Positions 603 to 39,084 of a stretch of DNA of 44,102 nt are shown here, one piece after another. Each line of letters begins with the position of its first letter. The first letter of the stretch is position 1. The notes under the pieces are model-generated. The model ran no database searches and was not told the DNA's origin. It saw only the letters and a list, made by a program, of their open reading frames with translations. Where the stretch lies: the IMG/VR virus record IMGVR_UViG_3300009506_001799, positions 1-44,102 of that record, one strand, 5' to 3'. Position numbers and translations under genes: made by a program. The DNA comes from a virus.

Positions 603-1574
603 TCATGCCACCAGCCGAGCGACCGCCGCCGCGGCGACTCGCTCGGCCGGGATCCTGTTCATCGCCCAGCAGCCCTGATCGCAGAGCCGCGAAAAGCCCA
701 TCTGGGGGAAGCGGTAGCATGGCCGGCCGTGGCAGGGCAGTCCGAACGACTCGGCCGGGCCCGGCATGATCGCGAAATGTCTTGGGTAGTGCCTGCACAT
801 CAGGTAGCCGTTGGTCGCGCCAAACACGGCCACCGTCGGCGTACCGACGGCCGCGGCGACGTGGAAGAGCCCGGAGTCGACGCCCAGAAGCAGATCGCAG
901 CGTGCCACAAGCGCAGTGACGAGCTGGAGGTCCGCGCACGCGAATCCGTCGGCGCCGATGTCCTCGGCAATCGCCAGGCCGCGCCTGGTGTCCTTGTGGA
1001 ACACCAGAACCTGCGCACCGACGGCCCGGACCTCGCGCACTACCTGGGCCCACTGCAAATCCGGCCAGGAGCGATTCACGGACACGGACTCGATCTCGAT
1101 GCCGACCAGTTGCGTCCGGCCGAGGCCATGACACTCGAGCCAGCCTTGAGCGCGGCCGCGGAGCTCCGCGGGCAGCGCCAGCCACGCGAGCCGCGGCTCG
1201 AGCTCGATCCCAAGGACTCGCGACGCCGTTTGATGCCAGACGTCGATTCGATCGAGCTGCACCGCTCCGCAGGTGTTTCGCTCGTGCTGGAAAGCAGGGC
1301 AGTACTGATCTATCGTCGCGTCGAACGGTTCCCGGGACCGCAAGTATCGATGGATGCCCGGATCCGGTGTTGCGTCACGCGCGCGCCGCTCACCTCGGTG
1401 GACGTCGACCGTACGGTGCACATCCGGGCACAGCTGTACGAACTCGCTGTAGCCTGCCAGCGTGTAGAACCACACCTCGGCATCGGGAATGGCCTCGCGG
1501 ATGGCTCGGGCGACGCCCAGGCAGCGAACGACGTCGCCGAGGCCGCCGGCCTCTCTCAGCAGCCTGATGCGCAT
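603..1574 (-). CDS. GT9-family (heptosyltransferase-like) glycosyltransferase
   Basis: A 323-aa protein with the two hallmarks of ADP-heptose:LPS heptosyltransferase-type GT-B enzymes. The N-terminus has a glycine-rich loop, GGLGDVVR, followed by a helix LGVARAIREAIP and a strand. The C-terminal donor domain has LLLGVDSGLFHVAAAVGTP followed by TVAVFGATN. Length is typical of the family. These enzymes transfer a sugar from a nucleotide donor, usually to LPS, but acceptor and donor here are unknown. The start overlaps the end of the radical SAM gene by 19 bp, so the two are translationally linked. In a phage it may modify host surface glycan or glycosylate a tail protein. Family assignment is firm and role is inference. 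Confidence 0.8.
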   Translation of the reverse strand: MRIRLLREAGGLGDVVRCLGVARAIREAIPDAEVWFYTLAGYSEFVQLCPDVHRTVDVHRGERRARDATPDPGIHRYLRSREPFDATIDQYCPAFQHERNTCGAVQLDRIDVWHQTASRVLGIELEPRLAWLALPAELRGRAQGWLECHGLGRTQLVGIEIESVSVNRSWPDLQWAQVVREVRAVGAQVLVFHKDTRRGLAIAEDIGADGFACADLQLVTALVARCDLLLGVDSGLFHVAAAVGTPTVAVFGATNGYLMCRHYPRHFAIMPGPAESFGLPCHGRPCYRFPQMGFSRLCDQGCWAMNRIPAERVAAAAVARLVA

Positions 1575-2911
1575 TTCAGGACCTTCCGCGGCTCCTTCTT
1601 CTCCTCGGGAAGGCCCGGGCCGAGCAGCTCGAGCTTCTCCATGTCGCCCTCGAGCTCCACGATCGCGCGAATCGCCTCCACGATCAGGCTCCGCCTGACC
1701 ATGCAGTACGTCGAATCAGGAATCCCCTGGACGCCGCCGACCATGTCCGCGCGGCACGGTCCGCCGCAGGCGTTGCGCGCCCAGCACGTCGGGCACCGCT
1801 TCTGCGCGTACCAGCGGTTCTCGAGCCACGGCAGGCGCGCCGGCTCGTCGAGCCCGTAATGGACGTACCCGACGCAGCTGGTCTCCTTGTGACACGCGTG
1901 GATCTCCCCGGCAGCGTTCACCGCGATGTAGCCGCGCGCAGCAGCGCATTCTGACCCGCTCGGTGCACGGCCCATAAGGCGCTGGATCGTCTTCCACAGG
2001 TAGGCCCAGCGCCCGCGCCGACCTTCTCTGGCCTGGTCGATGCACCACCTCGCGCCCTCGGCGATCGCGCGCGCGATCGCGCCGGGCGCGTAGGGACGCC
2101 TCTCGATCGGGCAGCCCTCATGCGCGCCGATGATCGCCGCCTCGAGCGCGACGTTCGTCGCGCAGCCCTCCTCGCAGAGCTCGTTCATAAATGCGAGCCG
2201 CTCCGCGATGCGCGGTTCCTCGTCAGGCATCCACGTCCCGCGCAACGTCGTGCGACCGGCCTGAGATCGTCGCTGCTTGATCAGGTCGAGCCCGCGGCGG
2301 ACGTCGGACCAGGAGCCGGTCCCGTCGGTGTGCCTGCGGTGTCTGTCGTGGATCTCGGGCGGCCCGTCGACCGACACGATCATGGAGAAGGCCCACGTGT
2401 TGAGGAACTCGATCTTGTGTTCGTCCAGCAGCGTCCCGTTGGTCGTTACATGCATGTGGCAGCGCGCGCCAGCTGCCTCGGCGAGGTGGCCGGCACGTTC
2501 CGTTGCCCACACGAGCCGATCCCAGCACGAGAGCGGCTCTCCGCCGAAGAACCCGATGCCGAAGCGCTGCGGCGGCCGCTTGAAGAGCTCGAGGGCACGC
2601 ACGACCGTGTCTTTGGTCATGCGGGCGTCTCCGCCGAGTTCGTTGCGGACATAGCAGTAGTCACAGCCAAGGTTGCACCCGTGAGTCAGTGAGAGCACGA
2701 CGTAGCGCGGCGTCGAGAACGGCCGCGGCGGGATCTGCGGCACGAACGGAGCAACCGGCGGCGGAGTCTCGATCGGGTTCAGCCTATAGAGCGCCATACT
2801 GAGCGGATCGTAGGCAACCCGCCGTCCGTCGAGACAGAACACGCGCATGCTGTCGGCGGGTGCCGGTATGTGCTGCATGCGCGGCCTGTCGGGGTTGAGG
2901 ATTCGACTCAT
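1556..2911 (-). CDS. Radical SAM/SPASM peptide-maturase-like enzyme
   Basis: A 451-aa radical SAM enzyme. The [4Fe-4S]-SAM cluster motif is C79-x3-C83-x2-C86 in GCNLGCDYCY, with a GGEP motif at 123-126 and a TTNGTLL strand near 156-162. The C-terminus has a SPASM-type auxiliary cluster domain: C322, C340, C346, then C373-x2-C376-x5-C382-x3-C386 and C403. SPASM enzymes typically modify ribosomally synthesised peptides or proteins (thioether crosslinks, formylglycine, C-C bonds). An additional CASGC sits at the C-terminus. The gene starts 24 bp after the stop of the tail hub gene, whose last 113 residues contain 20 cysteines, with an AGGA Shine-Dalgarno. The tail protein is the obvious candidate substrate (inference). 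No sulfatase is encoded nearby. Confidence 0.88.
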   Translation of the reverse strand: MSRILNPDRPRMQHIPAPADSMRVFCLDGRRVAYDPLSMALYRLNPIETPPPVAPFVPQIPPRPFSTPRYVVLSLTHGCNLGCDYCYVRNELGGDARMTKDTVVRALELFKRPPQRFGIGFFGGEPLSCWDRLVWATERAGHLAEAAGARCHMHVTTNGTLLDEHKIEFLNTWAFSMIVSVDGPPEIHDRHRRHTDGTGSWSDVRRGLDLIKQRRSQAGRTTLRGTWMPDEEPRIAERLAFMNELCEEGCATNVALEAAIIGAHEGCPIERRPYAPGAIARAIAEGARWCIDQAREGRRGRWAYLWKTIQRLMGRAPSGSECAAARGYIAVNAAGEIHACHKETSCVGYVHYGLDEPARLPWLENRWYAQKRCPTCWARNACGGPCRADMVGGVQGIPDSTYCMVRRSLIVEAIRAIVELEGDMEKLELLGPGLPEEKKEPRKVLKCASGC

Positions 2912-2935
2912 CGGGGGAGTTCCTTTCGCTAGGGA

Positions 2936-5494
2936 TCAGGAGGACTCATCGCTCTCACACCCGCTCTCGCAATCGCCACATCCGGCGTCTCCCCCCTCAT
3001 TCAGGCACCGGAAGCAGGGAGCGATCAGCTGCACGTCGACACAAGGGCCGCATGCGATCTCGTCAGCCTGACAGTTGATGTTGCAGCCGATCATGAACCC
3101 GCTCTCGCAGTAGGGCAGCGCGCATAGCTCCTCGGCCGAGGTCTTGCAGCCGAACTCCTCGAGCGTCTGACACGTGCCCTCACAATCCCAGCAGTCCGTC
3201 GTCGGCTCGAACTCGCTCTCGCACGTCGTCTCGCAACCTGCCGTCTCGCAGTCGCCCTCGCAGGAGCGATCGCCGCAGCCGGCCCAGCGGTGCAGACGCG
3301 CGGACAGGCGCGTGCGTGAAGGACGACCGGGATGCAGGCCATGCTCGAGGCCGATCTCCACCACCTGGGCGGGCAGCATCGAGTACGGCAGCTGGCTGTC
3401 GTCGAGCGTGATGACGTCGGACGGCTCTATTCCCACGCCATGGATGCTCGCATCGAGGCTCACGACGTCGTGCAGGTGCGCGACGCGCTTCAGCATGAAC
3501 TTGGCGAGCGCCTGCGGGCACGTCACCGTGCCGTACGGCCATGCGTCGATCTCGAGCGTGCGCCGGCCGAAGCGGGATTCCGCCCCCGAGTCCGTCACGA
3601 GGTACCGGCGCTCGGTCCCCGCCTCGCGCCAGCGGACGAGGACCTCGGAGAATGCGACGTCGAGCAGCTCGCGCGAGAGTTCGATCGAATCGGGGAAGCG
3701 CTGGGCCGGTCCGATGGTGAGCGAAGACGTCCCGCCGTCGGCGAACTGGTAGACCAGCTCGGGCGCATCGCCGGACAGACGCAGACGACAGCGCGCAAGG
3801 AACGCGAGCTCGGCGAGCAGGTCCCAGATCGTGTACTCGATGTCGAGTGCGAAATCCATCTTCCAGTTCGCCAGACGAGTCTCGGCGTCGGTCGTCTCGA
3901 GCGTCAGGCCCGTGAACTGGTCGCAGATGTGGGCCATCACGGCCGCCGGGTTGCGTATGACGGTCTCGCCGTCCTTGGGGCCGTCGACGTCGACGAGGAT
4001 CTCGTCGGTGTCGACGACCCAGCGGCCGATCATGCTCGGCCGAGTGGCGATCTGTACGCCGGTGCACGTCTCGCCGTTGACGGTGATCGCCGCCTGCGAC
4101 CACAGCTCGGGGGCGAGCAGCACCCAATCGACCTTTGGCGCCTTGGGCACATCGAAGGTAGCCCTGGCAGCTCCCAGTGTCATGATATTCGCCGCGGCGA
4201 TCAGCGAGCCGAACGCCATCGGCCGCCCGCCGGGCTGCTGCAGCGTCTGGATCGGCCGGCGGTAGCCGTGGACGTAGACCTGCTTGATCGTGCAGCTCCC
4301 CCGCGCAACGAGGTACTTCACGGGAGAACGGACGAGGATGACGTCGTCGCCCTCCGTGTGCGCCTCGGCAAACGAACGAATCCGATACGTCGACCCCGCC
4401 TTGATGGTTGTTGTGTAGCCGTAGCTGACGAAGTTCCCGCCGGGCGTCTCGCCCAGCTCGTAATCGACGGTGAAAGGCATGGAGTACTCGATGGTGCCGG
4501 TGCTGCCGTCGAACCGAAGGATCTCGCGGCCCTGCCTGATCGCCTGATCGCCAGTCGGTAGCGCCGTCGTCTGCGCGATCGTGGATTGGAAGCCGATCGT
4601 GCAGTACGCGTTGCCGCCCGTGTCGGGGTCCAGGTCGATCTCGATGCCCTGGCCGACGTATGTGCCGTCCGCCGTACCGATGAGAGCCGAGTCGACGACG
4701 CGCTGTGTGCTCGGGCTGTCCTCGGTCGTCGACCCGGTATGGATGATCTTCCCGCGTTCGGTCGCCGTGAATACGTTGCCCGCGAACGACCCGACGATCT
4801 GCTCGAGGCCGATCTGAATCGTGATCTCTTCGCCCTGCGGGAAGCGGCTGGCATCGTCGACGTAGAGCGTGGTGTCCGCGCTGCTGATGTCGGCCGCGAG
4901 CTTGGCGGCGGCGCCGAGGTCCCAGCCGATGGCGCTGACCTTCTTCGCGTGACCGTAGACGAGCGGCACGATGCGGCCCTCGTCCTTCGGTTCGAGATAC
5001 TCGGACAGCTCGCGCGTCACGTAGAGGCCGGTCGTCTGATGATGCTGCGCGCTGATGTCGGCGAGCTCGACACGGATCATGCGGTCGGACTCGCTCCACG
5101 AGACGGGCGGGACTACGGTGCAGCTCAGTATGCTCGAGGCGTCTGACCACGACGGGCTGGCCTCGCCGGGCGTCCAGATACCCCAGCGCAGCTCGCCTGC
5201 CAGACGCTGGAACTCGATGTCGTCCCACCACTCGCGCAGCTCGCCGCTCTGATCGATGAGATTCACCGCGGCGCGCGACACGGTGAACGTCTTGTCGCGG
5301 TTGATTCGCTGGGCGAGCTCGCCCCAGTCCGAAACGACGCGGCGGAGGCTGCTCGAGGAGATGTCCGTCGGCTGCCAGCCCGAAGTGAAGTAGATGTCGC
5401 CGACGGCGCCGCCGAATGAGATCTTGAGACAGGCTACGCACTGGTAGCTGCGCAGCTGCCGCGCGGCGTCGGAGCTGGCCGTGAGTGTGCGCAT
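2936..5494 (-). CDS. Tail hub/tip protein with 20-Cys C-terminal extension
   Basis: An 852-aa protein placed directly after tape measure and one small tail gene, where siphophages encode their tail hub or tip. Residues 1 to about 735 look like a structural, beta-rich tail protein, including segments such as IWDLLAELAFLARCRLRL and SRELLDVAFSEVLVRW, typical of hub-fold proteins. Residues 740-852 are quite different: acidic, Gly/Ser/Glu-rich, with 20 cysteines in CxxC, Cx3C and Cx4C spacings such as CEGDCETAGC and CGDCESGC. ATG at 5494 overlaps the preceding stop (TGATG). The tail tip contacts the host surface, so the Cys-rich tail may be exposed. It lies next to a SPASM radical SAM gene. Hub identity is by position and composition. 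Confidence 0.72.
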   Translation of the reverse strand: MRTLTASSDAARQLRSYQCVACLKISFGGAVGDIYFTSGWQPTDISSSSLRRVVSDWGELAQRINRDKTFTVSRAAVNLIDQSGELREWWDDIEFQRLAGELRWGIWTPGEASPSWSDASSILSCTVVPPVSWSESDRMIRVELADISAQHHQTTGLYVTRELSEYLEPKDEGRIVPLVYGHAKKVSAIGWDLGAAAKLAADISSADTTLYVDDASRFPQGEEITIQIGLEQIVGSFAGNVFTATERGKIIHTGSTTEDSPSTQRVVDSALIGTADGTYVGQGIEIDLDPDTGGNAYCTIGFQSTIAQTTALPTGDQAIRQGREILRFDGSTGTIEYSMPFTVDYELGETPGGNFVSYGYTTTIKAGSTYRIRSFAEAHTEGDDVILVRSPVKYLVARGSCTIKQVYVHGYRRPIQTLQQPGGRPMAFGSLIAAANIMTLGAARATFDVPKAPKVDWVLLAPELWSQAAITVNGETCTGVQIATRPSMIGRWVVDTDEILVDVDGPKDGETVIRNPAAVMAHICDQFTGLTLETTDAETRLANWKMDFALDIEYTIWDLLAELAFLARCRLRLSGDAPELVYQFADGGTSSLTIGPAQRFPDSIELSRELLDVAFSEVLVRWREAGTERRYLVTDSGAESRFGRRTLEIDAWPYGTVTCPQALAKFMLKRVAHLHDVVSLDASIHGVGIEPSDVITLDDSQLPYSMLPAQVVEIGLEHGLHPGRPSRTRLSARLHRWAGCGDRSCEGDCETAGCETTCESEFEPTTDCWDCEGTCQTLEEFGCKTSAEELCALPYCESGFMIGCNINCQADEIACGPCVDVQLIAPCFRCLNEGGDAGCGDCESGCESDESS
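2939..3277 (-). other. Segment encoding the cysteine-rich C-terminal domain
   Basis: This part encodes residues 740-852 of the tail hub protein. Cysteine spacing from the first is 4, 3, 4, 3, 9, 2, 3, 7, 7, 4, 7, 3, 6, 2, 8, 2, 8, 2 and 3 residues. Many cysteines are followed by E and preceded by G or D. The spacing does not match one repeated zinc-finger unit, so disulfide, Fe-S or enzyme-made thioether chemistry are all possible. Confidence 0.8.
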
Positions 5495-5868
5495 CAGTCG
5501 CTTTCCGAGACTTCCTCGACCTCGAGCGTGAGCGAGTAGATGTCCTCGGCGTACTCTTCCCAGTCGAGCTCGTCGCTCATGAGGCGCACGAGATGCGGCG
5601 CGCCGCGCCAGTCGGTGTACGTGAACGTGTGAACCGAGCCGTTGACCTTGTCCGCGCCGAAGAAGTCCTCGAGATCGTCGTACGCGTCACCGTCGAGCTC
5701 GGTGAACTGCAGCGTCCGACGCCGGACTTGAATGCCCTTGTCCTCGATGATCGGCTCGCCGTCGGCCGTGCGGCCGCGGGCCTGGTGCTTCACCGTCGTC
5801 CAGCGGTTGCCGAGCTCCGGGCTCCGGATCTCGACTGAGTCGCCGCCGCGAGTGAAGGTGACGGACAT
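5494..5868 (-). CDS. Small tail protein between tape measure and hub
   Basis: A 124-aa protein, rich in acidic and aromatic residues, with no membrane segment. Residues around FTYTDWRGAPHLVRLM followed by a strand-rich end (DIYSLTLEVEEV) resemble minor tail or distal-tail proteins that sit between the tail tube end and the hub in siphophages. It is encoded between the tape measure gene (9 bp gap) and the hub gene (overlap), which fits that role. Sequence alone does not fix whether it is a Dit-like ring or a minor tail protein. Confidence 0.6.
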   Translation of the reverse strand: MSVTFTRGGDSVEIRSPELGNRWTTVKHQARGRTADGEPIIEDKGIQVRRRTLQFTELDGDAYDDLEDFFGADKVNGSVHTFTYTDWRGAPHLVRLMSDELDWEEYAEDIYSLTLEVEEVSESD

Positions 5869-5877
5869 GCGCCGCTC

Positions 5878-8031
5878 CTAGAATCCCGGTGCCGTCTGGC
5901 CGCGCTTGCCCATCAGCTGCATGCTACGCGACAGCCGTTCCTCCTGGCGCTTGTCGATGGGATAGTAGTAGTTGTTGTTGATGTGGGTCACCGACTTTGA
6001 GCCGGCCAGGCCGGCCAGTCCGCCCAGGCGGCCAGCGGCCTCCGTCGGGTCCCAACCACTCGTCCCGGACGCCTGACTCACGGCGTCGTTGCTCTGGCCG
6101 GCGATATTGCCGAGGGCGCCGCCAAGCTGCGTGGCGGGGCCGATCGCCCCCGGAAGCACATACCCGCCCGCGGTCACAGCAGCCTTCAGCCAGTCAGGCA
6201 GCGCCTGGTAGACGCCCTCGGCGATCGCGCCGCCTACGCTCGTACCCCAACTGACGGCCGCCTTCCACAGCTCGTTGTTCACCTCGAGCACCTTGGCCAG
6301 CATGAGTGTGACGGCCTTGGCTGCGTCCTCGACAGCGGACTTCCAGTCGTCGGAAAAGAGCTTCTTGAGCCACTCCCAGAACTTCAGGATCATCGGCTTG
6401 GCCTCTTCCCACGCCTTCGTGACCGTGGTCCAGGCGCCCGATGCTGCGGCGGTCATTGCGCTCCATATCGAGTCGTGCTCGCCTCTCAGTGGCGTCAGGA
6501 CCTCCTTCTGCAGGAACTCCCATGCGGTCGTGGCGGCGCTCTTCACTGCATCCCACGTAGTCGACGCCCCCGTCTTGAGCGCCTCCCAGACCGACCCGTG
6601 TTTCTTGCGCAGTGGCTCGAGCACGTTCTGGTCGACGTAGACCCACGCGTTCCAGGCGGCCGTCCTCACTTCGTACCAGAGGGTCTCGGCGATCGTGCCG
6701 ACTTCGTCGCCGTGCTCATTCCACCACTGAATGGCCAGATCGAGCCACTCCTTCACGATCTCAAAGGCCTCGCTGATGATCGGCGCGAACTGCTCGCCGA
6801 TGAGGCCGAGCAGCGTAAGCACCGACTGCTTCACCTGGTTGTAAGAGGTGGCCAGCGTCGTGGCCATCTTCTCGTACGCCTCGCTGGTCATCCCCGCCTT
6901 CGATGCCATGACATCGAGGTCCTTGGCAAAGCCCTCCATGTTCTTCAGCGCAGGCAGGATCCCGCGCAGCGCCCGTTGATTGGGGAACAGCCGCGCGAGC
7001 GCGTCGGCAGGTAGCTGGCTGATCTTCTGCAGTATGCCGTGCAGGCCCATCGTCTCGAGAGCCGTCGAGTTCATCTCGAAACCGAGCTCTGCCGCCAGCT
7101 CGACAGCCTCGTCGGTCGGCTTGAGGAACGAGGCGATGATGGCCTGCAGCGCGGTGATCGCGTTCTCGGTCTTCACGCCGGCACGCGTCATGGTCGCCAG
7201 CATGGCGCCCATCTCATCCATGGACACGCCGGCAGACGCCGCGGTAGTGGCGACGAGACCGATGTTCGAGGCGAGTTCGGCGAACGTCGTCTTGCCGCGC
7301 GCCACGGTGGCGAACAGCATGTCAGACACCTCGGATGCCTTCTCCGCCTCGAGCCCGTATGCGTTGAGGATCGTCGTGATCGCGTCGGCGGCCGTCTTCG
7401 TGTCGGTGAGCCCCGCCTTCGCGGCCATCGTAGAGACCCGGAGCACGTCCAGAGCCTTGGCCGCGGGGATCGACGCGGAGAGGATATCGTACAGGCCGCC
7501 GGACAGCGCCGCCGTCGACTCGCCGAACTCCATGGCGAGCTCGCGGATGCCGGCCTTGAACTGCCCCATGAATGCGTCGGGATCCGAGAGCATCGTGGAC
7601 ACGTTGGCCAGCTGAGTCTCGAAGTCGGCCCACACCTTGGTCCCGCCGAGGACTGCGGCCGTCACCGCGAGCATGCCGCGCTTGAACTGCGTCCACGCGA
7701 AGCTGGCGAGCTTCCGAGCGAGACTGGCCGCGTAGCTCGCCGCGGTGGCAAGTGCGCTGCCGAGCATGCGCACCGGTGCGAGGTAGATCGAGGCTGCGCT
7801 CCCGATGACCGAATACGCCGTCGAGGCGGCTTGCCCGACGGCGCCCAGGTAACTGACCGCGGACTTCGCCGACTTGCCGAGGGCAGTCATGGCGTCCGCG
7901 CCGGCCACTCCCGCCTTTTCGACGGCGCGCCCGGCAGTGGCGGCGATCTGTTTGACCCGGTTCATATGCCGCTGGTAGTCGGTGATATCAGCGCCGACCT
8001 TTGCGACCAGCGCCTCTGCCAGGGTGCTCAT
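5878..8031 (-). CDS. Tail tape measure protein
   Basis: A 717-aa Ala-rich, largely helical protein with the conserved core of TP901-type tape measures near residues 135-320 (WADFETQLANVS, followed by SGGLYDILSAS and LFATVARGKTTFAELA). Alternating hydrophobic helices and W-rich repeats follow (VWEALKTGASTTWDAVK and similar). It sets tail length and is ejected on infection. At the usual 1.5 angstrom per residue this length would predict a tail of roughly 100 nm. The start at 8031 lies inside the frameshifted end of the tail chaperone gene, the classic arrangement. No lysozyme or peptidase domain was recognised in it. Confidence 0.92.
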   Translation of the reverse strand: MSTLAEALVAKVGADITDYQRHMNRVKQIAATAGRAVEKAGVAGADAMTALGKSAKSAVSYLGAVGQAASTAYSVIGSAASIYLAPVRMLGSALATAASYAASLARKLASFAWTQFKRGMLAVTAAVLGGTKVWADFETQLANVSTMLSDPDAFMGQFKAGIRELAMEFGESTAALSGGLYDILSASIPAAKALDVLRVSTMAAKAGLTDTKTAADAITTILNAYGLEAEKASEVSDMLFATVARGKTTFAELASNIGLVATTAASAGVSMDEMGAMLATMTRAGVKTENAITALQAIIASFLKPTDEAVELAAELGFEMNSTALETMGLHGILQKISQLPADALARLFPNQRALRGILPALKNMEGFAKDLDVMASKAGMTSEAYEKMATTLATSYNQVKQSVLTLLGLIGEQFAPIISEAFEIVKEWLDLAIQWWNEHGDEVGTIAETLWYEVRTAAWNAWVYVDQNVLEPLRKKHGSVWEALKTGASTTWDAVKSAATTAWEFLQKEVLTPLRGEHDSIWSAMTAAASGAWTTVTKAWEEAKPMILKFWEWLKKLFSDDWKSAVEDAAKAVTLMLAKVLEVNNELWKAAVSWGTSVGGAIAEGVYQALPDWLKAAVTAGGYVLPGAIGPATQLGGALGNIAGQSNDAVSQASGTSGWDPTEAAGRLGGLAGLAGSKSVTHINNNYYYPIDKRQEERLSRSMQLMGKRGQTAPGF

Positions 8032-10944: not shown

Positions 10945-11241
10945 TCAGTCCTCCTTGATCCTGATCAGCCCGCGCTCCGCCAATGCGCGCGCGAGGTCCT
11001 GTGCGAGCGTCGGCGACGAGAGCGAGAGCTCGCCATCCTGCCGTGGCGGAACGGGCGTCACGTGCCACACGCCATCGACGAACCGCAGCACGGTGTGCGG
11101 CTGCGCGGCCGGCGGCTCGAGGTCGGGGCCGGTGATCGGCACGCGCAGGTAGCGCGGCGCCTCGAGCTGCGGCTTGTGCCTCAAGTCGCCAATGTAGACG
11201 ACCAGGTTGTCGTCCTGTGTGTCGACGATGAACCCGCGCAT
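10945..11241 (-). CDS. Hypothetical late protein (98 aa)
   Basis: Unrecognised small protein starting MRGFIVDTQDDNLVVYIGD. ATG at 11241 is chosen because GGGAG lies 5 bases upstream. Longer upstream readings would run inside the fibre gene. Its start overlaps the stop of the tail fibre gene by one base, so expression is probably coupled to the fibre. A role as a fibre-associated or fibre-assembly protein is conceivable but not shown. Confidence 0.6.
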   Translation of the reverse strand: MRGFIVDTQDDNLVVYIGDLRHKPQLEAPRYLRVPITGPDLEPPAAQPHTVLRFVDGVWHVTPVPPRQDGELSLSSPTLAQDLARALAERGLIRIKED

Positions 11242-13739
11242 CACGGCTCCCTTCTGGTCATCATGCGAAAGCCGAAGACCTGGACGGTGAGCTGCGCCGC
11301 GCCGCTGTTCTCCTCGACCGCGTAATCGATCTGCTGTGATGCGTCGACCACCACCTGGGCGCGGCCGCCGAGCTCGTCGAAGTTCCCCGCGGTCTGGACG
11401 CGCATGCCCTGTGCGGTGTTCGTCCAGCTGCTCGGCGGCGTCGTGCGCCACCAGATGCTGCCGTCGTCAGTGCTGGACGAGGACGTGTTGGACAGCTTGA
11501 AGAAGCAGTCTGCCTGGCACTTCGGCGGTACCGAGGACAGCGTGCCGGTTTCCCAGACCTGATGAGCTAGCGAGACGTCGGTGATGTCGACCGGCGGATT
11601 CGTGGACGCGTCACCCAAATAGACGAACACGTCGTCGATCTGCAGGAAGCGTATGATGTCGGACGAGCTGTCCGTTTTCACAGCGCCGATCAGGCGTTTG
11701 TAGTCGTACGAGCCCGGCATGGTCGGAGCGCTGAAGCTCGTCGAGAACAGCGCATCGACCGTCCCCGACGACGAGTCCTTGATAAGCCAGACGGCATACA
11801 GCGTCGACGCGGCGATCGAGCCGGTGTCGAGCCCGCCTGCGTTCGTGCCCTCGGACCAACTCGCATCGAGCTGCTTCGTGAGGGCCGTGCCGAGCGACAT
11901 GTCCTGCGAGCCCGCGGCGTCCTTGCATTCGCCGACGGAGATATCGACGTCGGCGTCGGGGTCCGTTGCGTTGTACGACAGGATAAGGCCGGCGATGTGG
12001 CAGCGCGGCATGGCGTTCGTGTTGGTGGCGAGCTCGTGCTCGCTGCCGGCGCCGTCCTGGAAGTAGAGCTTGTTGTCGGACTTGGTGTAGAGCTTGCCGT
12101 AGCCGGCGTCGTCAGTCGGGGTGGTGGTTTCCTTCAGGCAGAGGACGCCGCCTTTGAGGGTGAGGTCGGCGTAGTCGGAGGGTGAGTTCGTGTTGATGCC
12201 GACGTGGCCTTCGGTCACTGAGAGTTCGATCGTAGCCGTGCTGTCCAACGCTCCGTCGCGCCCGACAAAGAACCCGTCGTTCGAGCCACCGTCGTCCGTA
12301 TCATAGAGGAAGTAGGTGGACGCCTTACTCGTGATCAGCGTCGTGTTCGTGCCCTGGCCGGCGATCCAGTTGCGGTTCTGGCCCGAGTACTTCCCGATGA
12401 TGAACCCATAGGACGAGTTCAGAATCCTCGCGTTCCCCGACACGTCCAGCGTGTAGGTGGGGGTCATGCCGATGCCAACGCCGCTTGCGCCCACCACCAT
12501 CACATTGGAATTAAAGCGTGCCGCAGTGGCATAGGCGATGTCAACGTAGCCGATCCCCCCTGCGTAGACGTACTCTGTACCTGCAGTCGTGCCAGAGGCA
12601 ACATAGTAGGTCCGCCGGGCATTGCTCATGACAATGTGGCCGGCGGAGTTCGTCCGCCACTGTTCAACGAATGCTGCCGTCGAGTCGTCGCGGTATCCGA
12701 CGATCAGCGAGTCGCCACCGTCGCGGGCGATACATGCCGCGTTCGACTCCTGCGAGATAGTGACAAATGCCTGAATGCTGTTGTCGACAATGCAGAACGT
12801 CGGGGATGAACCGGCAATGGTCAACGTGTGACTACCGTATACATCGAGAGCCGATGTGCCAATGCCTACGTCGCCCGCGAAGTAGTTCTTCGTGCCGGTA
12901 CCAGTCTGATAGACCCCCCAGTGATTCGTGATTGTGCCAGCACTGCTCAGGCCCTCAATGTAGACACCGTACGCATTGGTGATGGTCCGTTCGCCACTCG
13001 CGCCGGCCGAGTAGATCCCGGTCCGGGCCCAGATGGCCCTCTGGTCGGCGAGCGTGCCCTCAAAGCCGGAGTCGTTGATGTGCATCTGCGTCGCGTACCC
13101 AACGAGATAGCCGCTCTCAGTTTCACCGGCCGGGATGACAACGTTATGTGCCGCGACGTAGTGGATGATGTTGTAGTGGGTCCCGCTGGTCGTGAGCGTG
13201 ACGTTGAAGTCCTGGTAGAACGCGAACGTGCCAGCGTCGGTCTTGTCGACACGCATCTGCAGTGGATAGCTGGGGCTGACGCCGATTCCGATGTTGCCGT
13301 AGAACCGTGCGGATCCTGTCATGAAGCGATGTTGGGTCGCAGCGTAGTAATCCGAGTAGCCAGCACCGCCACTCGTGAGGACCTCGGTCCCCGAGAACTT
13401 GAACCCATCCGCCGTGATCGAGTAGCTGCCGACGTCCCAATCACCACTCAGCCCTCGCGTCCCGGCGCAGAGCACGTATTGCGTGTGATCGTCATCGCCG
13501 AGACCGAGCAGGCCGCCGTGGTCCGTGTTGCTGCCGTCGGCGTAGCCGAGCGCATGCTCGGCGCCGGCGCCGTCCTGGTAGTAGAGCGTATGGTCCGACT
13601 TGGTGTAGAGCTTGCCGCGGTCCGCGACCGCGTCGGGCGTGGTCGTCTCGTCGATCTCGAGGTAGAGCGAGTTCTTGACCGCGTACCCGCCGAGGTCGAG
13701 GTTGCGCGAGAGCGCGTAGTAGTCGTCGGGGAAGCCCAT
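11241..13739 (-). CDS. Tail fibre / receptor-binding protein
   Basis: An 832-aa protein, Gly/Ser/Thr-rich with low Lys, typical of fibres. It contains the phage-fibre style DDDHTQY motif near residue 80, many short Gly-Asn-rich beta repeats (GNIGIGVSPSYPLQM, GVGIGMTPTYTLDVSGNA, GHVGINTNSPSDYADL), and a duplicated unit GKLYTKSD..LYxQDGAG..H near residues 42-64 and 558-580. No chaperone-type peptidase end was recognised. The gene sits among connector genes upstream of the tail tube, rather than after the hub, an unusual place for a fibre. The base composition is visibly less GC-rich in its middle. It probably determines host binding. Confidence 0.75.
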   Translation of the reverse strand: MGFPDDYYALSRNLDLGGYAVKNSLYLEIDETTTPDAVADRGKLYTKSDHTLYYQDGAGAEHALGYADGSNTDHGGLLGLGDDDHTQYVLCAGTRGLSGDWDVGSYSITADGFKFSGTEVLTSGGAGYSDYYAATQHRFMTGSARFYGNIGIGVSPSYPLQMRVDKTDAGTFAFYQDFNVTLTTSGTHYNIIHYVAAHNVVIPAGETESGYLVGYATQMHINDSGFEGTLADQRAIWARTGIYSAGASGERTITNAYGVYIEGLSSAGTITNHWGVYQTGTGTKNYFAGDVGIGTSALDVYGSHTLTIAGSSPTFCIVDNSIQAFVTISQESNAACIARDGGDSLIVGYRDDSTAAFVEQWRTNSAGHIVMSNARRTYYVASGTTAGTEYVYAGGIGYVDIAYATAARFNSNVMVVGASGVGIGMTPTYTLDVSGNARILNSSYGFIIGKYSGQNRNWIAGQGTNTTLITSKASTYFLYDTDDGGSNDGFFVGRDGALDSTATIELSVTEGHVGINTNSPSDYADLTLKGGVLCLKETTTPTDDAGYGKLYTKSDNKLYFQDGAGSEHELATNTNAMPRCHIAGLILSYNATDPDADVDISVGECKDAAGSQDMSLGTALTKQLDASWSEGTNAGGLDTGSIAASTLYAVWLIKDSSSGTVDALFSTSFSAPTMPGSYDYKRLIGAVKTDSSSDIIRFLQIDDVFVYLGDASTNPPVDITDVSLAHQVWETGTLSSVPPKCQADCFFKLSNTSSSSTDDGSIWWRTTPPSSWTNTAQGMRVQTAGNFDELGGRAQVVVDASQQIDYAVEENSGAAQLTVQVFGFRMMTRREP
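12045..12098 (-). repeat. Intragenic fibre repeat, copy 2
   Basis: A 54-base segment nearly identical to 13563-13616, encoding the GKLYTKSDNKLYFQDGAG version of the duplicated fibre motif. The two copies are in direct orientation about 1.5 kb apart and could recombine to shorten the fibre. Confidence 0.7.
13563..13616 (-). repeat. Intragenic fibre repeat, copy 1
   Basis: The partner of 12045-12098, encoding GKLYTKSDHTLYYQDGAG near the N-terminus of the fibre. Most differences between the copies are isolated base changes. Confidence 0.7.
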
Positions 13740-18379: not shown

Positions 18380-19489
18380 TCAATTCGCGACGCGCTTGAG
18401 GTCGCGCAGGGGACGGGAGCCGCCCCCCGGTGCCGGCAGGTCGTCGTACGTGATCCTGCCCTTCGTGATGAGTTCGTGTCGGCCGGCACCGAGGACGCGG
18501 CGCTGCGTCGCTGCGGGTTGTCTCCTGATCCACTGCCGCCAGGTCGTGCGTCCGCGAATGAAGCGGCCCCCCGAGAGCATGCGCCCCGGCGGCTCGATTT
18601 CGTCCATGGGGATCCCGAGCTCGCGCCAGGTCCTGGCTACCGGCGCGTAGGTGCACCCGCACTGCGGATGCAAAGGGATCGACGGGCGATCCTCATTGGC
18701 TCCGAAGACGCGCCCGTCGTATGAGCCGCACTCGACACACGTGTTCTCCCAGGTGGCGATGAACTCGTACCCGGCGATCACGTCGGAGAACGCCTTGAGT
18801 GCCTTCTCCTTCGCTTGTGCCGCACAGCGCGCGAGCTCGGTCCGCGCGATCGAGCGCGCGCGGTACTCGTCGCCATCCACCAGGCCGCGGATCGCGCGCG
18901 CCAGATCGTCGACGGAATCACCGCGCGCGAACGCCATGCTCGTCTGCGAGAGAACCTCCCGCGTCGACTCGGCCGCGATCCTCGTGAACCGTTTCGGCCA
19001 GGCGACGCCATCGACCGGTGCGAACGCCAGCTCGGCCGCCTGCGCCTCGGTGAACACCGGCGAGCCGAGACGCATGCCGACCTGGCCGGACGTCTGGATT
19101 CTCTTCGCGAAGTCGTCGAGCTCGGGCTCCTCCAGGTCGTCGATGGTGTACGCGTCATCGTCCTCGCGAAGGCGCGACTCCATGACGGGCGCGGGCATCG
19201 CCGAGCGCAGCTGCTCGCGCAGAACTGAATCGACGTCCCGGACCTCATCGACCAGCCGGCGCGCGAGCCATTCCCGCAGTCGATCGAGCGCGCGCGTGAT
19301 CTCGGTCCGTACATAGAACGCCTCGACGGGCGCGCGCACAGCCCGCTGCATGAGCACGTGCGAGAGCACCCGATCGGCAACGCCGTCCCAGACGACGCGC
19401 TGCAGGGCGAGCTCGTCGGCCCAGCGATACAGCCGAGCTCCCTGGTCGGCGATGACTGCGTCGGAGAGTGATGCGCGCGGGTAGGTCAT
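18380..19489 (-). CDS. Mu F-like / SPP1 gp7-like head morphogenesis protein
   Basis: A 369-aa protein. The C-terminal half has the family signature: a helical repeat region (SIARTELARCAAQAKEKAL), then CVECGSYDGRVF and HPQCGCTY, a Cys-pair pattern typical of Mu F/SPP1 gp7 minor head proteins. These are present in few copies in the head and may help genome ejection. ATG at 19489 overlaps the stop of the glycosyltransferase gene (ATGA), which defines the start. In most relatives this gene directly follows the portal. Here a two-gene glycan cassette separates them. Confidence 0.8.
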   Translation of the reverse strand: MTYPRASLSDAVIADQGARLYRWADELALQRVVWDGVADRVLSHVLMQRAVRAPVEAFYVRTEITRALDRLREWLARRLVDEVRDVDSVLREQLRSAMPAPVMESRLREDDDAYTIDDLEEPELDDFAKRIQTSGQVGMRLGSPVFTEAQAAELAFAPVDGVAWPKRFTRIAAESTREVLSQTSMAFARGDSVDDLARAIRGLVDGDEYRARSIARTELARCAAQAKEKALKAFSDVIAGYEFIATWENTCVECGSYDGRVFGANEDRPSIPLHPQCGCTYAPVARTWRELGIPMDEIEPPGRMLSGGRFIRGRTTWRQWIRRQPAATQRRVLGAGRHELITKGRITYDDLPAPGGGSRPLRDLKRVAN

Positions 19490-20496
19490 GCCCGAAGCAG
19501 CGCCTCCCTGAAGGAATCCCGCACCGACTCGGGCGAGAACTGGGACTTCCGCGCATCGGCAACGGCAACGACCTGGTCCCAGTAGTCCCTGCTGCGCGGC
19601 AGCTCCCGCAACCACGCGTCGATCATCTTCTCGTGACCGTACATGCACGAGATCTCCGGGAAGAGCCACCCCTGGAACATCGTCTCGCGATAGCCGACGC
19701 ACGGTACGCCGACGGCCGCGCAGTCCGCGGCGAATCGACCGAGGCTGTAGTCGGGGTCGAGGTGGATCGCGGCCCTGCACTGTGCCAGGCGCGACAGGAA
19801 CTGCGAGTACGGCAGAACGTCGACGAAATGCCCGTCGAACAGAGCGCGCAGACGGCCGCCGACGATGGCATCATGCTCGGGCCGATGACGATCACGCAGC
19901 GTCATGATCCTCCAGTCGTCGTTCGGCAGCGCGGCGCGCGCGATCGCCAGACTCAACAGGCCCCCGCGGTGTGCGGTCGGACTGGCGCCGACGAAGATCC
20001 AGTTGCGCCGGTCGTCGGGCGTTCTGCGGTGCAGCTCGGCGTCGCGCGGGAATGGGAAGAGCAGGTAGCCGATCGGTCGCTTCGTAAAGAACTTCCATGT
20101 GCCGATCAACTCGGGATTCTGCACGAGCACCAGTCGCGCGGCGCGCAGCGCCTTGATGTAGCGCTCACGGTCGCCGAGCGGCAGCGTGTTCCAGATACAG
20201 CCCGGCCCCTCCTGGAAGACGGCGACGAAGTCGTGGACGCGCGTGAGTTCGAGGACGGCCTTCGCGAGCGCCGCGTGCAGGTCCACGAGGACGACGTGGT
20301 ATGCGGACAGCGCCTCGATCGCTTCCTGGTCGAGCTCGGTGCCGATGAACATGTCCGCCCCGATACAGGCGGCGATGCCCTCGACGGAGCAGAGGTGCTC
20401 CTGATTCTCTGGCGGTCGTGCATCCCACCTCTTGCGGATCGGATGCGGATCACCGGTGTAGCACGACACGAGAGCGGTTCGGGGGAGATCGCTCAC
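19486..20496 (-). CDS. GT-B-fold glycosyltransferase (GT4-like)
   Basis: A 336-aa protein with the outline of GT-B glycosyltransferases: an acceptor half with Rossmann-like segments (ALVSCYTGDPHPIRKRW, VVLVDLHAALAK) and a donor half with WIFVGASPTAHRGG and AAIHLDPDYSLGRFAADCAAVGVPCVG, matching the usual nucleotide-sugar pocket region. The donor and acceptor are unknown. It lies between an O-methyltransferase and a head protein gene within the head operon, overlapping the latter by 4 bases. It may glycosylate virion proteins or alter host surface sugars late in infection. Confidence 0.65.
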   Translation of the reverse strand: MSDLPRTALVSCYTGDPHPIRKRWDARPPENQEHLCSVEGIAACIGADMFIGTELDQEAIEALSAYHVVLVDLHAALAKAVLELTRVHDFVAVFQEGPGCIWNTLPLGDRERYIKALRAARLVLVQNPELIGTWKFFTKRPIGYLLFPFPRDAELHRRTPDDRRNWIFVGASPTAHRGGLLSLAIARAALPNDDWRIMTLRDRHRPEHDAIVGGRLRALFDGHFVDVLPYSQFLSRLAQCRAAIHLDPDYSLGRFAADCAAVGVPCVGYRETMFQGWLFPEISCMYGHEKMIDAWLRELPRSRDYWDQVVAVADARKSQFSPESVRDSFREALLRA

Positions 20497-20508
20497 GCCG
20501 TCCTCCGT

Positions 20509-21222
20509 TCAGCAGTAGATGGCCTTGCGAATCACGCACTGATCAAGTGCCGACACGTTCAGCATGGCGAGCTCGCCGTTCTTCGGGCCCGACGCGTTCG
20601 TGCCGATGAAGAAGGCGCGTGCCTCGCCTGCGTCCTGTATGCGCTCGGCCAGCGAGGCGATCGCGAGGCCGAAGTAATCCGCGATCGCCTGCGCGACGCC
20701 CGGGCACTTCGTCCAGCCGAAGTCGTCACAGATGATGGAGCCGCCGAGCGGCAGCCGGGGCCAGAAGTACTCGAGCCCCGCCTTCGTGGACTCGTACAGA
20801 TCGCCGTCGAGATGCACGCATGCGAAGCAGAGAGAGTCGACGTCGGCCGTCGTCTCAGGGAACCGGCCGACCTTCAGATGATGCCGGTGCAGCGACCCCG
20901 TCCGGGCCGCGAGCCACGAGAGGACCTCCTGCGCGGACGTGTCGCCGAAGTCGCCACGCTGGTGCACGTCGACCGACGAGGGCTCCGGCATCCCGGCGAA
21001 CGTGTCGAACAGATACAGATCCTTGTCCGGGGCTGCCAGTGACATGAGGCAGGCCGTGCCGCCACGCCACACGCCGAGCTCGGCGAAGTCGCCGGGGAGT
21101 TTCCGGGCGCGCCGCGCCTCGCGCCAGATGGACGCGCACCGGTCCGCCGGAGCGCAGCATCGGTCCTTCGCAGTCGCATACGCCGCCGCAAAGTCCGAGA
21201 GGGGGGTCTCGCTCGTCACCAC
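20509..21222 (-). CDS. TylF/MycF-like sugar O-methyltransferase
   Basis: A 237-aa SAM-dependent methyltransferase of the TylF type. Motifs include GDFAELGVWRGGTACLMS (SAM-binding loop), LYLFDTFAGMPEP, a DLYESTKAGLEYFWPRLPLGG segment and IICDDFG, the acidic metal/substrate site of this family. TylF-like enzymes methylate sugar hydroxyls, often on surface glycans. The start is taken at GTG 21222, with GGAAAGG 5 bases upstream. A second GTG follows directly. It pairs with the adjacent glycosyltransferase (12 bp gap), suggesting transfer and then methylation of a sugar. Confidence 0.78.
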   Translation of the reverse strand: MVTSETPLSDFAAAYATAKDRCCAPADRCASIWREARRARKLPGDFAELGVWRGGTACLMSLAAPDKDLYLFDTFAGMPEPSSVDVHQRGDFGDTSAQEVLSWLAARTGSLHRHHLKVGRFPETTADVDSLCFACVHLDGDLYESTKAGLEYFWPRLPLGGSIICDDFGWTKCPGVAQAIADYFGLAIASLAERIQDAGEARAFFIGTNASGPKNGELAMLNVSALDQCVIRKAIYC

Positions 21223-21274: not shown

Positions 21275-22801
21275 CTAGTCTTCCCGGTCGTCGCCGTTCC
21301 GATCGCCGCTCTGAGGCGGCGTATCGCGCGAATCGTCGGCCCGATCCGGGGGGCCCTGGTCGCCATCGCCGCCGCGATCGCCGTCCCCCTGGCCCCACTC
21401 CGGATAGCTCCTGCGCTCCTCCTCGTCGGCCATATTCGAGTTCTCGACGTCGGGGTCGAGGCCGTCACGGATGGCAGCCGTGCGCTTCGACATCCAGCCA
21501 CCGCTCACGGCGATCGAGTCGCCCTTCACGTCCGGCAGTCTCTCGCCGCGGGGGAAGCGCGGCCCGATGATCTTGGCCTTGCGCACGAGCTCCTTAACCC
21601 GCTCCGGGCCGCCGAGGAGTTCGACGCGCGACATGAGCACCTGCCGCATGGCCGGACGCTGAACGCGCTCGGCCAGACGGCGCTGCCAGCGCCGGATCGA
21701 GACCTGCGACGCCGTCTGGCTGATCATGACGCCCGCGTACGTCGCCGACTGCGCGTCCATGCGCGAGAGATACTCGGCCATCCGCGATCCCTGCGAGAGG
21801 CGCAGGCCGAGCTCGCGCCCGACGTTGACCAGGTCCTTCGCATCGACGTTCGGCGAGAGGTATTCGTAGTCGGTGTTGTTCGTGTCGATGATCGTGCCGC
21901 CGCGGTATCGGCGACGCCTGACGCTGCGCTTCGAGCCGCTGGCCGTCTCGTTCGTCGTGCCGGTCTTCTGCGCGTCGGCGAACGTCCGGACCTGTCCCGG
22001 CGTCGCGCCGAGGTGCTTGCGGATCATGACGATCGCCGTGCGCATCCTGACCAGCAGCAGCAGGTCGTACAGCCATTGCCCGTAGCTCTTCACCGTGTCG
22101 CTCGACGCGAAGAGCAGCGGGAGGCCCCGTTTCACGTTCGACTGCGTGCCGATCTTCCACCACGTACAGGCGGTCGCGTCGACGGGGACGATCTCGTTAC
22201 CGTACTCGATGTTGAACCGCAGGATGGTCTCGACGTCCTCGGGATCCGTCTCGATGGGGTCGACGCCCTGCCGCGGCGCCTTGAGCTTCTCCGGGTCGAC
22301 GAACCGCTGCTTGAGATCCACGCCGTCCCAGAACCAGCGCATGAGCATCTCGCCGTCGACGAGCACACGCTCGAAGGCCTCGTCGATCCTGTCGACCCAC
22401 AGCGTCTCGTCCGACCATTCGTCCCAGAGCTGCTGCGCGGTCTCGGCCAGCTGCTGGTCGTCGTGCTGGAACGTGGTCGTGAGGCCGGAGTCCTGAAGCG
22501 AGAGGTCGATGATGCAGTTGATCAGGCCCAGGTACGTCTCGTCGAGCAGGAACAGGTCGCGCGACTTCGCGCGCGCCATCTCGAGGCTCTTGGCCGGCCC
22601 GCGCCACGGCAGCATGCTCTTCGACCTCGTGGATCCCCAGTCGCGATCGTCGTCGTCTTCGTAGTCCGACCAGGCCTCCATCACGCGGCGCCAGTCGTTG
22701 AACGCGCGCTCCGCCAGGGCAACGCTGGCCTCGGCCTCGAGCGCATCGGCACGCGCGGCGGCCCGCCACGCGCGGTACTTGTCACGGATCAGTCCGAACA
22801 T
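21275..22801 (-). CDS. Portal protein
   Basis: A 508-aa protein directly downstream of the large terminase. ATG at 22801 is preceded by AAGGGGAG and overlaps the terminase stop. Features typical of portals include an N-terminal helical stem, a core with VDGEMLMRWFWDG and GLPLLFASSDTVKSYGQWLYDLLLLVRMR, and a disordered acidic Gly/Asp-rich C-terminus. The dodecameric portal would dock terminase and later the connector. I could not decide between portal families from sequence alone. Confidence 0.8.
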   Translation of the reverse strand: MFGLIRDKYRAWRAAARADALEAEASVALAERAFNDWRRVMEAWSDYEDDDDRDWGSTRSKSMLPWRGPAKSLEMARAKSRDLFLLDETYLGLINCIIDLSLQDSGLTTTFQHDDQQLAETAQQLWDEWSDETLWVDRIDEAFERVLVDGEMLMRWFWDGVDLKQRFVDPEKLKAPRQGVDPIETDPEDVETILRFNIEYGNEIVPVDATACTWWKIGTQSNVKRGLPLLFASSDTVKSYGQWLYDLLLLVRMRTAIVMIRKHLGATPGQVRTFADAQKTGTTNETASGSKRSVRRRRYRGGTIIDTNNTDYEYLSPNVDAKDLVNVGRELGLRLSQGSRMAEYLSRMDAQSATYAGVMISQTASQVSIRRWQRRLAERVQRPAMRQVLMSRVELLGGPERVKELVRKAKIIGPRFPRGERLPDVKGDSIAVSGGWMSKRTAAIRDGLDPDVENSNMADEEERRSYPEWGQGDGDRGGDGDQGPPDRADDSRDTPPQSGDRNGDDRED

Positions 22802-24537
22802 CCGAACTCCCCTTCTCTCGCGGGCTCGTGCACCTCTTCGCGGTCGAACGTCTCGACGCGCGGGACGAAGAAACCGCCGATCTTGCATGCCAGCAGTTCG
22901 TAGGCGCTGGCGAAGCGCTGGTGGTCCTTGCCCTTGCTCCAGACGTAGCGGATGTCGCCGGACGGCGTCTTCTTCGCCAGGCGCTCGGGCTTGCAGAGCT
23001 CGTCATAGAACTCGCCCTCGAGCAGCGTCGCGGCGTCGCGCGGCAGCTCGACCTGACGCCTGATGTAGGTCTGCTGATCTGCGTCGAGGAGCGAGGTGCG
23101 GTCGACGCGCACGATACCCTTCTGTTCGTCGACCGTGACACCAGCGAGCGAGTCGCCCTGAAGGAAGTCGCAGCGCCAGAGCCGCCACCACCACCCGGAC
23201 GGCTCGCCATCCTTCGTGTATCCGGTGACGCCGTGCTCGAGCTCGCGCTGGAACTCCTCGAGCAGATGCGTCTCGGGCCGCGCGTCGGCGACGACCAGCG
23301 CAACGTTGTAGCGGTCGAGCAGCTCGCGCACCTGCCGCTTCGACCGCAACTTGCCGGCGAACACCAGGCGCCGCTGACTGCCGCCGGGACAAACTGATAT
23401 CCGCAGGTCGAAGCGCGCGCCGATGTCGAGTCCCGCGACCGCGTGCACCGCAGCATCGGGCATCGTGTAGTTGCGCACGCAGCGGCTGAGCATCTCGGCG
23501 GTCAGCCGCGATCCCGGCGCGGCGTACGGCAGGCCGAGGCGCTCGTTGTAGAAGACCTCCATGGAGGCGACGTCGTCTTCGGCCTTCTGGAACTCCTCGA
23601 CGAGCCTCCGCAGCGGCACCGAGGCGAGGAACAGCTGGCTGAAGTGGTAGCTCCTTCGCGTCGCGCCCGTGTTGGTCGGCTTCCAGAATGCGAACGCCGG
23701 GTCGCGCTCGAGGCGGTCTATCGGACTTGCGCACGTGCGGCAGTAGATGTGGGGATCTGAGCCGGAGCCCTTCTGCCACTTCGGGTCGAGCAGCTCGTAC
23801 CCGATGACCTGGCCCTCCTCGTCACGGAGCGTCTTCACGACGTTGACGAACCAGTCGAGCGGTTGCTCGTCGCCGCACTGTCGGCACTTGATGTGCCACT
23901 CGCGCTTGTCGCCCTGCTCGTACACTTTCGCGATCCCGACGTCGGGGTGCGTCGGGTTGGCGATGTGATACACGATGCGGTACTGCGAATGGTCGAGCCG
24001 GCCGAGCGCCAGCTTCAGGTTCTCCTGGTCGCACTCGTCGTATTCCTCGACCACCAGCATGTCGACGGGGATCTCGCGGAAACTGCGGCGGGTCTCGGCC
24101 GAGGCGAAGTTGATCACGCCGTGGCCGAAGGCCTTCAGGCCGACGTTGTCGACTTCATCCGGGGCCGCCTTGAGCAGATCGCGATACCGGTCGACGTATT
24201 CGAGCGGTCGATCGATGCGGTTGTGGACGTACCTGCCGCGCTGATCGTATGTCGGGAGCACGACCATCACGCCGAGGCCGCTGGAGGCCGCGGCCAGGAT
24301 CATCGGGATCGTCGTCTCGGTGACGCCGCACTGCACGCACTTCATGATGTCGGCGCCCAGCGGGATCTCGTTGATCAGCTCGCGCTGGTAGGGGGCGTCG
24401 TCGAAGCGCAGCATCTGGTTCGAGTGCGTGCGGTGGATCCGCGTGAACTCCAGCCGCCGCGAGGCGATCTGCTTCATCGCCAGCAGCAGCGCGAGGCGCT
24501 CGCGATCGACCCGTTCCTGATCAGATGCGCCGGGCAT
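22789..24537 (-). CDS. Terminase large subunit (GpA-like)
   Basis: A 582-aa packaging motor. The ATPase has a deviant P-loop near residues 65-76 (IMKCVQCGVTET) and a Walker B with catalytic Glu at VDMLVVEEYDE (158-168). Two CxxC knuckles follow (CRQCGDEQP and CRTCASP), as in GpA-type terminases. The nuclease half contains the acidic strands AVAGLDIGARFDLRI and VALVVADARPE. It cleaves and pumps DNA into the prohead. The gene overlaps the small terminase by 17 bp and the portal start by 13 bp. Mu-class phages package headful from integrated copies. Confidence 0.88.
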   Translation of the reverse strand: MPGASDQERVDRERLALLLAMKQIASRRLEFTRIHRTHSNQMLRFDDAPYQRELINEIPLGADIMKCVQCGVTETTIPMILAAASSGLGVMVVLPTYDQRGRYVHNRIDRPLEYVDRYRDLLKAAPDEVDNVGLKAFGHGVINFASAETRRSFREIPVDMLVVEEYDECDQENLKLALGRLDHSQYRIVYHIANPTHPDVGIAKVYEQGDKREWHIKCRQCGDEQPLDWFVNVVKTLRDEEGQVIGYELLDPKWQKGSGSDPHIYCRTCASPIDRLERDPAFAFWKPTNTGATRRSYHFSQLFLASVPLRRLVEEFQKAEDDVASMEVFYNERLGLPYAAPGSRLTAEMLSRCVRNYTMPDAAVHAVAGLDIGARFDLRISVCPGGSQRRLVFAGKLRSKRQVRELLDRYNVALVVADARPETHLLEEFQRELEHGVTGYTKDGEPSGWWWRLWRCDFLQGDSLAGVTVDEQKGIVRVDRTSLLDADQQTYIRRQVELPRDAATLLEGEFYDELCKPERLAKKTPSGDIRYVWSKGKDHQRFASAYELLACKIGGFFVPRVETFDREEVHEPAREGEFGCSD

Positions 24538-38983: not shown

Positions 38984-39084
38984 GGCATCGCCACCACCAT
39001 CACCATCAAGCGCGAAGAGGGCGAGGGCGGGGGCGCGGCTCATATCGGCAGCAGCGCTCTCGCCCGAGCCGCCGAGAGGACCAG

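Follow-up and report, generated by a model that had tools for sequence, protein, structure and literature searches.

Among the radical SAM enzymes that carry a SPASM domain, CteB, PapB and QhpD join a cysteine sulphur to the C-beta or C-gamma of Thr, Asp or Glu to make thioethers; Asp and Glu are the acceptors for PapB and QhpD, and QhpD has a protein subunit as its substrate (PMC11002830, PMC8172795). Here we report the analysis of a tail-gene locus in the IMG/VR record IMGVR_UViG_3300009506_001799, a complete record of 44,102 bases that encodes a Mu-like transposable phage; this whole stretch is referred to below as the window. In this locus a tail hub protein with a Cys-rich C-terminal tail is encoded next to a radical SAM/SPASM enzyme and a GT9-type glycosyltransferase. 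Judging from the sequence comparisons below, we consider it probable that these three genes act together as a cassette for tailoring the virion, in which the SPASM enzyme modifies the hub Cys tail, most likely by forming thioethers, and the GT9 enzyme probably attaches a sugar. No description of such a phage system, linking a radical SAM enzyme to a tail protein in the manner of ribosomally synthesised and post-translationally modified peptides (RiPPs), was found in the open-access literature.

The locus can be compared with four described systems. As with the ranthipeptide (SCIFF) maturases CteB/Tte1186 and PapB, a SPASM enzyme is encoded beside a Cys-rich ribosomal partner, but here the predicted substrate is the C-terminal end of a large virion protein instead of a small leader-bearing precursor peptide, and the phage enzyme appears to lack a full RiPP recognition element (RRE) and scores under the curated cut-offs. 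QhpD introduces Cys-Asp/Glu thioethers into a subunit of quinohemoprotein amine dehydrogenase (PMC8172795), whereas the predicted phage target is a tail protein with many more cysteines. The autotransporter heptosyltransferases TibC and AAH, which are related to GT9, act on a repetitive protein of the cell surface (PMC4358343). TibC ranks among the closest folds of the window GT9 enzyme, after the lipopolysaccharide (LPS) heptosyltransferases WaaF and WaaC. In the module of phages Cumys and phiMa (PMC11437467), a phage SPASM enzyme likewise adjoins a repetitive protein in the tail-gene region, but that partner has H-x-D motifs in place of Cys and the third gene is DUF483, not GT9.

The hub tail and its linkage to the SPASM gene

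The first-pass annotation of the window had described an 852-amino acid (aa) hub with 20 Cys in its last 113 residues and, 24 bp downstream, a 451-aa enzyme with CxxxCxxC and a full SPASM cysteine pattern. Both descriptions hold: the 20 Cys lie within residues 740-852, as compared to 9 in the other ~736 residues of the hub, and the enzyme cysteines are invariant in 18 homologues. The binomial probability of at least 20 Cys in 116 residues is ~3e-17, with the Cys content of the other structural proteins (1.2%) as background. The tail is acidic (26 Asp/Glu vs 3 Lys/Arg) and in frame, with a G+C content at third codon positions (GC3) of 0.82 vs 0.88 in the hub body, and since its 10-mer DNA complexity is 0.98 it is not a microsatellite; it is genuine coding sequence. 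The junction between body and tail, W-[AG]-G-C-x-x-x-C-E, is of the same kind in homologous hubs.

The designation "tail hub" was borne out by a profile of six hub bodies, which matched the lambda Tip attachment protein J (8iyk, 9e7m) at E-values of about 1e-5 (1.2e-5 to 1.7e-5). The match covers J residues 327-499, the hub region, and is weak but consistent. One hub relative matched phrog_31 (1.4e-4), the window hub body is 24-26% identical to hub bodies of other phages, and no close hub relative was found in Pfam, in PHROGs or by tblastn against phage records. Because the Cys tail directly follows the J-like region, analogy with J would place it in three copies on the distal, host-facing side of the tail, presumably exposed at the tip.

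The linkage of Cys module and enzyme was examined in three ways. An alignment of hub bodies without their Cys tails (A3), whose members except the window had been found by Cys pattern and not by enzyme, retrieved 15 IMG/VR loci (designated here, like all loci compared, by L numbers); such alignment-based scans were productive, whereas single-sequence scans gave few relatives. A SPASM gene was present in all six distinct cases in which a Cys-tailed hub was followed by downstream DNA (the window, L021, L248, L250, L251 and L252), at a distance of 6.7 kb from the hub in L250, and an adjacent SPASM gene in none of the four hubs that lack a Cys tail (L255, L257, L258 and L259; Fisher P = 0.005). 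L100/L249, L247 and L254 were left uncounted because the contig or stretch stops inside the tail. The one radical SAM-like match among these tail-less loci lies 6.8 kb from the hub, in L257; it is a short enzyme of the head region and was rejected as a counterpart.

In the second approach, IMG/VR was scanned with a DNA pattern for C-E-x-x repeats. Most raw CExxCExxCExxC matches were microsatellites or wrong-frame open reading frames (ORFs), which the DNA-complexity filter removed; 12 loci passed the thresholds (a 10-mer complexity of 0.9 or more, a length of 100 aa or more and a density of at least 11 Cys per 50 residues). The records of ten of these contained a PF04055 match, nine of them above the curated cut-off, compared with 2/23 viral records drawn with an arbitrary pattern (P 2e-5). 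The list of genuine repeats had first been made by eye with the enzyme column known; the numeric rule kept those 11 and added L105, probably a wrong-frame ORF, which was scored negative from a partial stretch only.

The third approach began with the enzyme: three phage SPASM sequences were aligned, and a search of IMG/VR with this alignment yielded 80 loci. In 53 of them an ORF on the same strand and within 4 kb was Cys-rich, defined as 9 or more Cys per 50 residues, as against 10/80 in the antisense control (P 1e-12). Clustering at 60% identity gave 42 clusters, 32 with a Cys-rich neighbour, a count in which the L086/L091 cluster is positive although it belongs to the His/Asp class described below and its Cys call is probably spurious, and in which L014 is negative although Cys-rich genes lie ~7 kb off. 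The Cys repeats near SPASM genes are of several styles, namely C-[EQ]-x-x, CTCTCTC, (N/D)C(N/D)C and CxGTC.

The association of Cys module and enzyme is thus strong and general, and it recurs on carriers that are unrelated to each other: J-like hubs (L021, L149, L155, L157, L248 and L260-L262), P2 gpI-like tail proteins (L016, with a Tail_P2_I match, PF09684, 4e-11; L015, L019, L020, L052 and L125, assigned by the layout they share with L016) and relatives of Hoc-like head decoration proteins (L037 and L039; phrog_10993, to 3e-92). As the carriers are unrelated, what these loci have in common is the pairing of Cys module and enzyme, and common inheritance of one tail gene is insufficient as an explanation. 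Among 84,980 bacterial and archaeal genomes, the best matches came from Planctomycetota (L261, L262), Deltaproteobacteria (L278) and an unclassified bacterium (L260), and in all of these loci a protein with a Cys tail is encoded near the enzyme; lower-ranked matches were mostly ordinary bacterial enzymes. The co-occurrence search suggested in the first pass therefore extended the link to unrelated carriers and bacterial assemblies, and the case that would have spoken against it, Cys-tailed homologous hubs routinely without a nearby radical SAM gene, was looked for and not encountered.

This distribution bears on the reading in which the Cys tail is a self-folding metal- or Fe-S-binding or disulphide-rich tip domain and the radical SAM gene a mere passenger in the tail module. 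Segments rich in Cys, or in His and Asp as in the second class, are typical metal ligands, CxxC pairs are present in the window hub tail, and tail tips of the lambda type can house an Fe-S cluster. We nevertheless regard a passenger gene as unlikely, since the enzyme tracks the module from one unrelated carrier to another and is missing next to homologous tail-less hubs, and the strict C-[EQ]-x-x repeat appears to differ from known Fe-S and zinc sites. The simplest reading, consistent with the linkage, is that the Cys tail serves as the enzyme's substrate; the modification itself is a prediction.

Several loci show variants of the arrangement. In L024-L033 (about L026:7359-7931), 191-aa proteins ending in CECTCTCTCTCTCTCTC, a different Cys code, overlap or directly precede the SPASM gene. 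In Phage Phass-1 (L010:3962-5677), a recoded gut phage whose gene was read with TAG as Gln, the same logic is found: no more than 4 bp after the SPASM gene comes the gene of a 174-aa protein whose C-terminus is rich in Cys. The MT83xxxx "phage" records (L005-L009 and L011; unverified, gut) contain mostly an ordinary SCIFF precursor and maturase (GGCGECQTSCQSACKTSC), are probably bacterial DNA and were not used.

Predicted tailoring enzymes and their proposed chemistry

The radical SAM gene is preceded by an AAAGGAA-like ribosome site, and its product belongs to the radical SAM domain family (PF04055, 68.1 bits vs a cut-off of 29.5, E 1.3e-18). Its assignment to the SPASM enzymes is supported by the cysteines for two auxiliary clusters and by fold matches to CteB and anSME. 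CteB (5wgg) is the nearest solved structure by family profile (E 6e-80), and the AlphaFold model (mean confidence score, pLDDT, 86.5) has its best fold matches in CteB (TM 0.70-0.76), anSME and ChlB. The nearest NCBIfam models are those of nif11-type, PapB, QhpD and SCIFF maturases, all under cut-off: the ranthipeptide/SCIFF-type models scored 108/425 (TIGR03974), 150.9/340 (NF047865) and 156.7/518.7 (TIGR04064), and the QhpD model (TIGR03906), which spans nearly the whole enzyme, 142.2 vs 453 bits.

In 18 tails of the window's family, Cys-Cys spacing is mostly four residues (547 steps of exactly four), Cys is followed by Glu or Gln in 77%, and Lys and Arg are nearly absent, a pattern of the kind expected of a recognition code. 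Thioether formation on the tail is the leading guess, because the near relatives CteB, PapB and QhpD make thioethers from sulphur to C-beta or C-gamma. In the sequence of events that we propose, the phage would make a J-like hub with a Cys-rich C-terminal tail, the adjacent SPASM enzyme would join Cys sulphurs in the tail to nearby side chains (likely acceptors being Glu, Gln, Asp and Thr), and the GT9-type enzyme would probably glycosylate this segment too. The host-facing tail tip would thereby gain a compact, stable and decorated extension, which may have a role in adsorption or stability.

The same substrate could also undergo another chemistry, such as sactionine formation, epimerisation, formylglycine formation or activation of Cys for the glycosyltransferase, instead of a ranthipeptide-type thioether. 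SPASM enzymes catalyse varied reactions, the fold relatives include anSME (a formylglycine enzyme) and ChlB, and identity to characterised enzymes is low, so that we hold a different reaction to be possible although doubtful: Cys-thioether maturases account for the closest solved structure and for several of the closest profiles, the partner is Cys-rich, and tens of cysteines would be superfluous for making formylglycine.

Several points weigh against the proposed cassette. The window tail is looser than those of its relatives, with Cys spacings of 3-10 and Glu or Gln after 10 of the 20 Cys; no curated NCBIfam cut-off for a thioether maturase is reached; the enzyme appears to lack a full-length RiPP recognition domain, with only three short N-terminal strands (residues 23-44) predicted; few distinct hubs were sampled; and, as both genes belong to the tail module, their linkage may in part reflect inheritance of the module as a whole.

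The enzyme C-termini offer a further observation. The substrate-like Cys motif that ends the window enzyme has counterparts in several relatives, which likewise end in CxxC or similar Cys motifs. Across loci these C-termini mirror the partner repeats, with HGD or HADHTD (L383, L086, L001) on one side and CxxC or CxxxC in the window's class on the other. In L015:6720-9149 an intein-like insert splits the radical SAM enzyme within its CxxxCxxC motif.

The GT9-like gene was correctly noted in the first pass to overlap the radical SAM gene (by 19 bp). Its product is a GT9 family member (PF01075, 62.6 bits vs a cut-off of 22) with a GT-B fold (WaaF, 1psw, E 9e-15); the AlphaFold model (pLDDT 91) is nearest to WaaF/WaaC and then to TibC. 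The autotransporter heptosyltransferase (BAHT) model TIGR04414 is not reached (18.7 vs 200 bits). A four-Cys cluster (C339/C342/C358/C370) was considered as a sign of a protein heptosyltransferase, by comparison with the TibC iron finger, and was set aside since the spacing differs and TIGR04414 fails. A GT9 homologue directly follows the radical SAM gene in ~14/16 loci of the window's family (positive loci: L013/L052, L014, L015 with two, L016, L018, L019, L020, L045, L248, L251, L252, L261, L262 and the window). This conserved position supports the idea, raised in the annotation, that GT9 is part of the system; a protein-glycosylating role is plausible, and the enzyme could then act on the same target as the SPASM enzyme. 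GT2-like genes (judged by eye) often come next after GT9, and in L016 a GT25 gene lies between two Cys-tailed tail genes.

Related enzymes with H-x-D repeat partners

Enzymes related to those of L001, L086 and L091 form a second class, in which a massive H-x-D repeat protein adjoins the enzyme in 46/54 loci (antisense control, 2). Within the repeats, His is followed at the second position by Asp or Asn in 97% of cases and Phe most often by Asn, and many of these enzymes carry H-G-D or H-A-D at their own C-termini. The i, i+2 aromatic-x-Asp/Asn motif is that of the triceptide cyclophane enzymes (PMC11002830); the H-x-D and F-x-N repeats resemble it and would fit the formation of three-residue cyclophanes. 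The cultured Thermus phages Cumys and phiMa share the arrangement of SPASM gene and repeat protein.

For the Cumys/phiMa radical SAM module, the part of the 2024 paper available to us proposes DNA modification and makes no mention of the repeats (PMC11437467). By extension, the enzymes could act on another target, for example the DNA of the phage or sugars of the host surface, with the Cys-rich gene as an incidental neighbour, and the glycosyltransferases in the neighbourhood would agree with this. We judge it very unlikely: the constant partner across both classes is a repetitive protein, often of a virion module, and not a set of nucleotide-modification genes, and in Cumys the gene adjoining the enzyme encodes 54 H-x-D/N units.

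Returning to modification of virion proteins, the data suggest that unrelated phages chemically harden or decorate their own particles by a route not described before. On balance we lean towards a widespread maturation strategy in which SPASM enzymes cross-link repeats grafted onto virion surface proteins, with a Cys-thioether class (C-[EQ]-x-x, often with GT9) and a cyclophane class (H-x-D, F-x-N). If so, RiPP-like radical chemistry would extend beyond secreted peptides and enzyme cofactors to the building of viral particles, phages would gain a means of making protease-, redox- or heat-resistant tips, many natural repeat-protein substrates would be on hand for enzyme discovery, and one group of phage radical SAM genes, regarded as "auxiliary", would have a role. 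A protein of L038 (L038:2680-4170) links the two classes, as it combines CxxxC repeats with an HSDHSDHSD run; three radical SAM genes overlap or come after it.

Gene layout of the window

The tail module lies on the minus strand in the order tape measure, 124-aa tail protein, hub, radical SAM gene and GT9 gene; coordinates are listed in Table 1. A homologue of the 124-aa protein is encoded immediately before the hub in L155/L252, L157/L251, L149/L250, L248, L254 and L100. A 106-aa ORF at 264-584 of the window had a homologue in none of the loci compared.

Table 1. Features of the window and loci of the second class (positions refer to the window unless a locus is named)
Feature	Position	Strand	Basis or remark
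Tail hub protein, whole gene, 852 aa	2936-5494	-	
Hub body, residues 1-736, lambda J-like	3287-5494	-	Profile match to J; downstream of tape measure and 124-aa protein
Cys-rich hub C-terminal tail, predicted substrate	2936-3286	-	20 Cys in 113 residues, acidic
Radical SAM/SPASM enzyme, 451 aa, predicted hub-tail maturase	1556-2911	-	PF04055, NCBIfam neighbours, CteB
CxxxCxxC SAM-cluster motif (C79, C83, C86)	2654-2677	-	Invariant in 18 homologues
SPASM auxiliary-cluster Cys C322, C340, C373, C376, C382, C386, C403	1703-1948	-	Invariant in 18 homologues
C-terminal CASGC of the enzyme, substrate-like Cys motif after floppy linker	1559-1573	-	pLDDT <50
GT9-type (heptosyltransferase-like) glycosyltransferase, predicted second tailoring enzyme	603-1574	-	PF01075; conserved position
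124-aa tail protein	5494-5868	-	Conserved neighbour upstream of hub
Tape measure protein	5878-8031		
Head morphogenesis protein	18380-19780		
Portal	21275-22888		
Terminase	22789-24537		
Transposase	30224-31921		
MuB-like protein	32672-34102		
Second-class loci	L086:2680-6648; L340-L393; L395:4961-7251		L395 is Thermus phage Cumys

Elsewhere in the window, two genes may encode variable receptor proteins, one with a C-type lectin domain (PF00059; 25691-27043) and one with a weak match to the second domain of Mtd (11241-13739). Two sugar-type genes were also noted, a TylF-like methyltransferase gene beside another protein (19486-21222) and a polysaccharide pyruvyl transferase gene (38947-39861).

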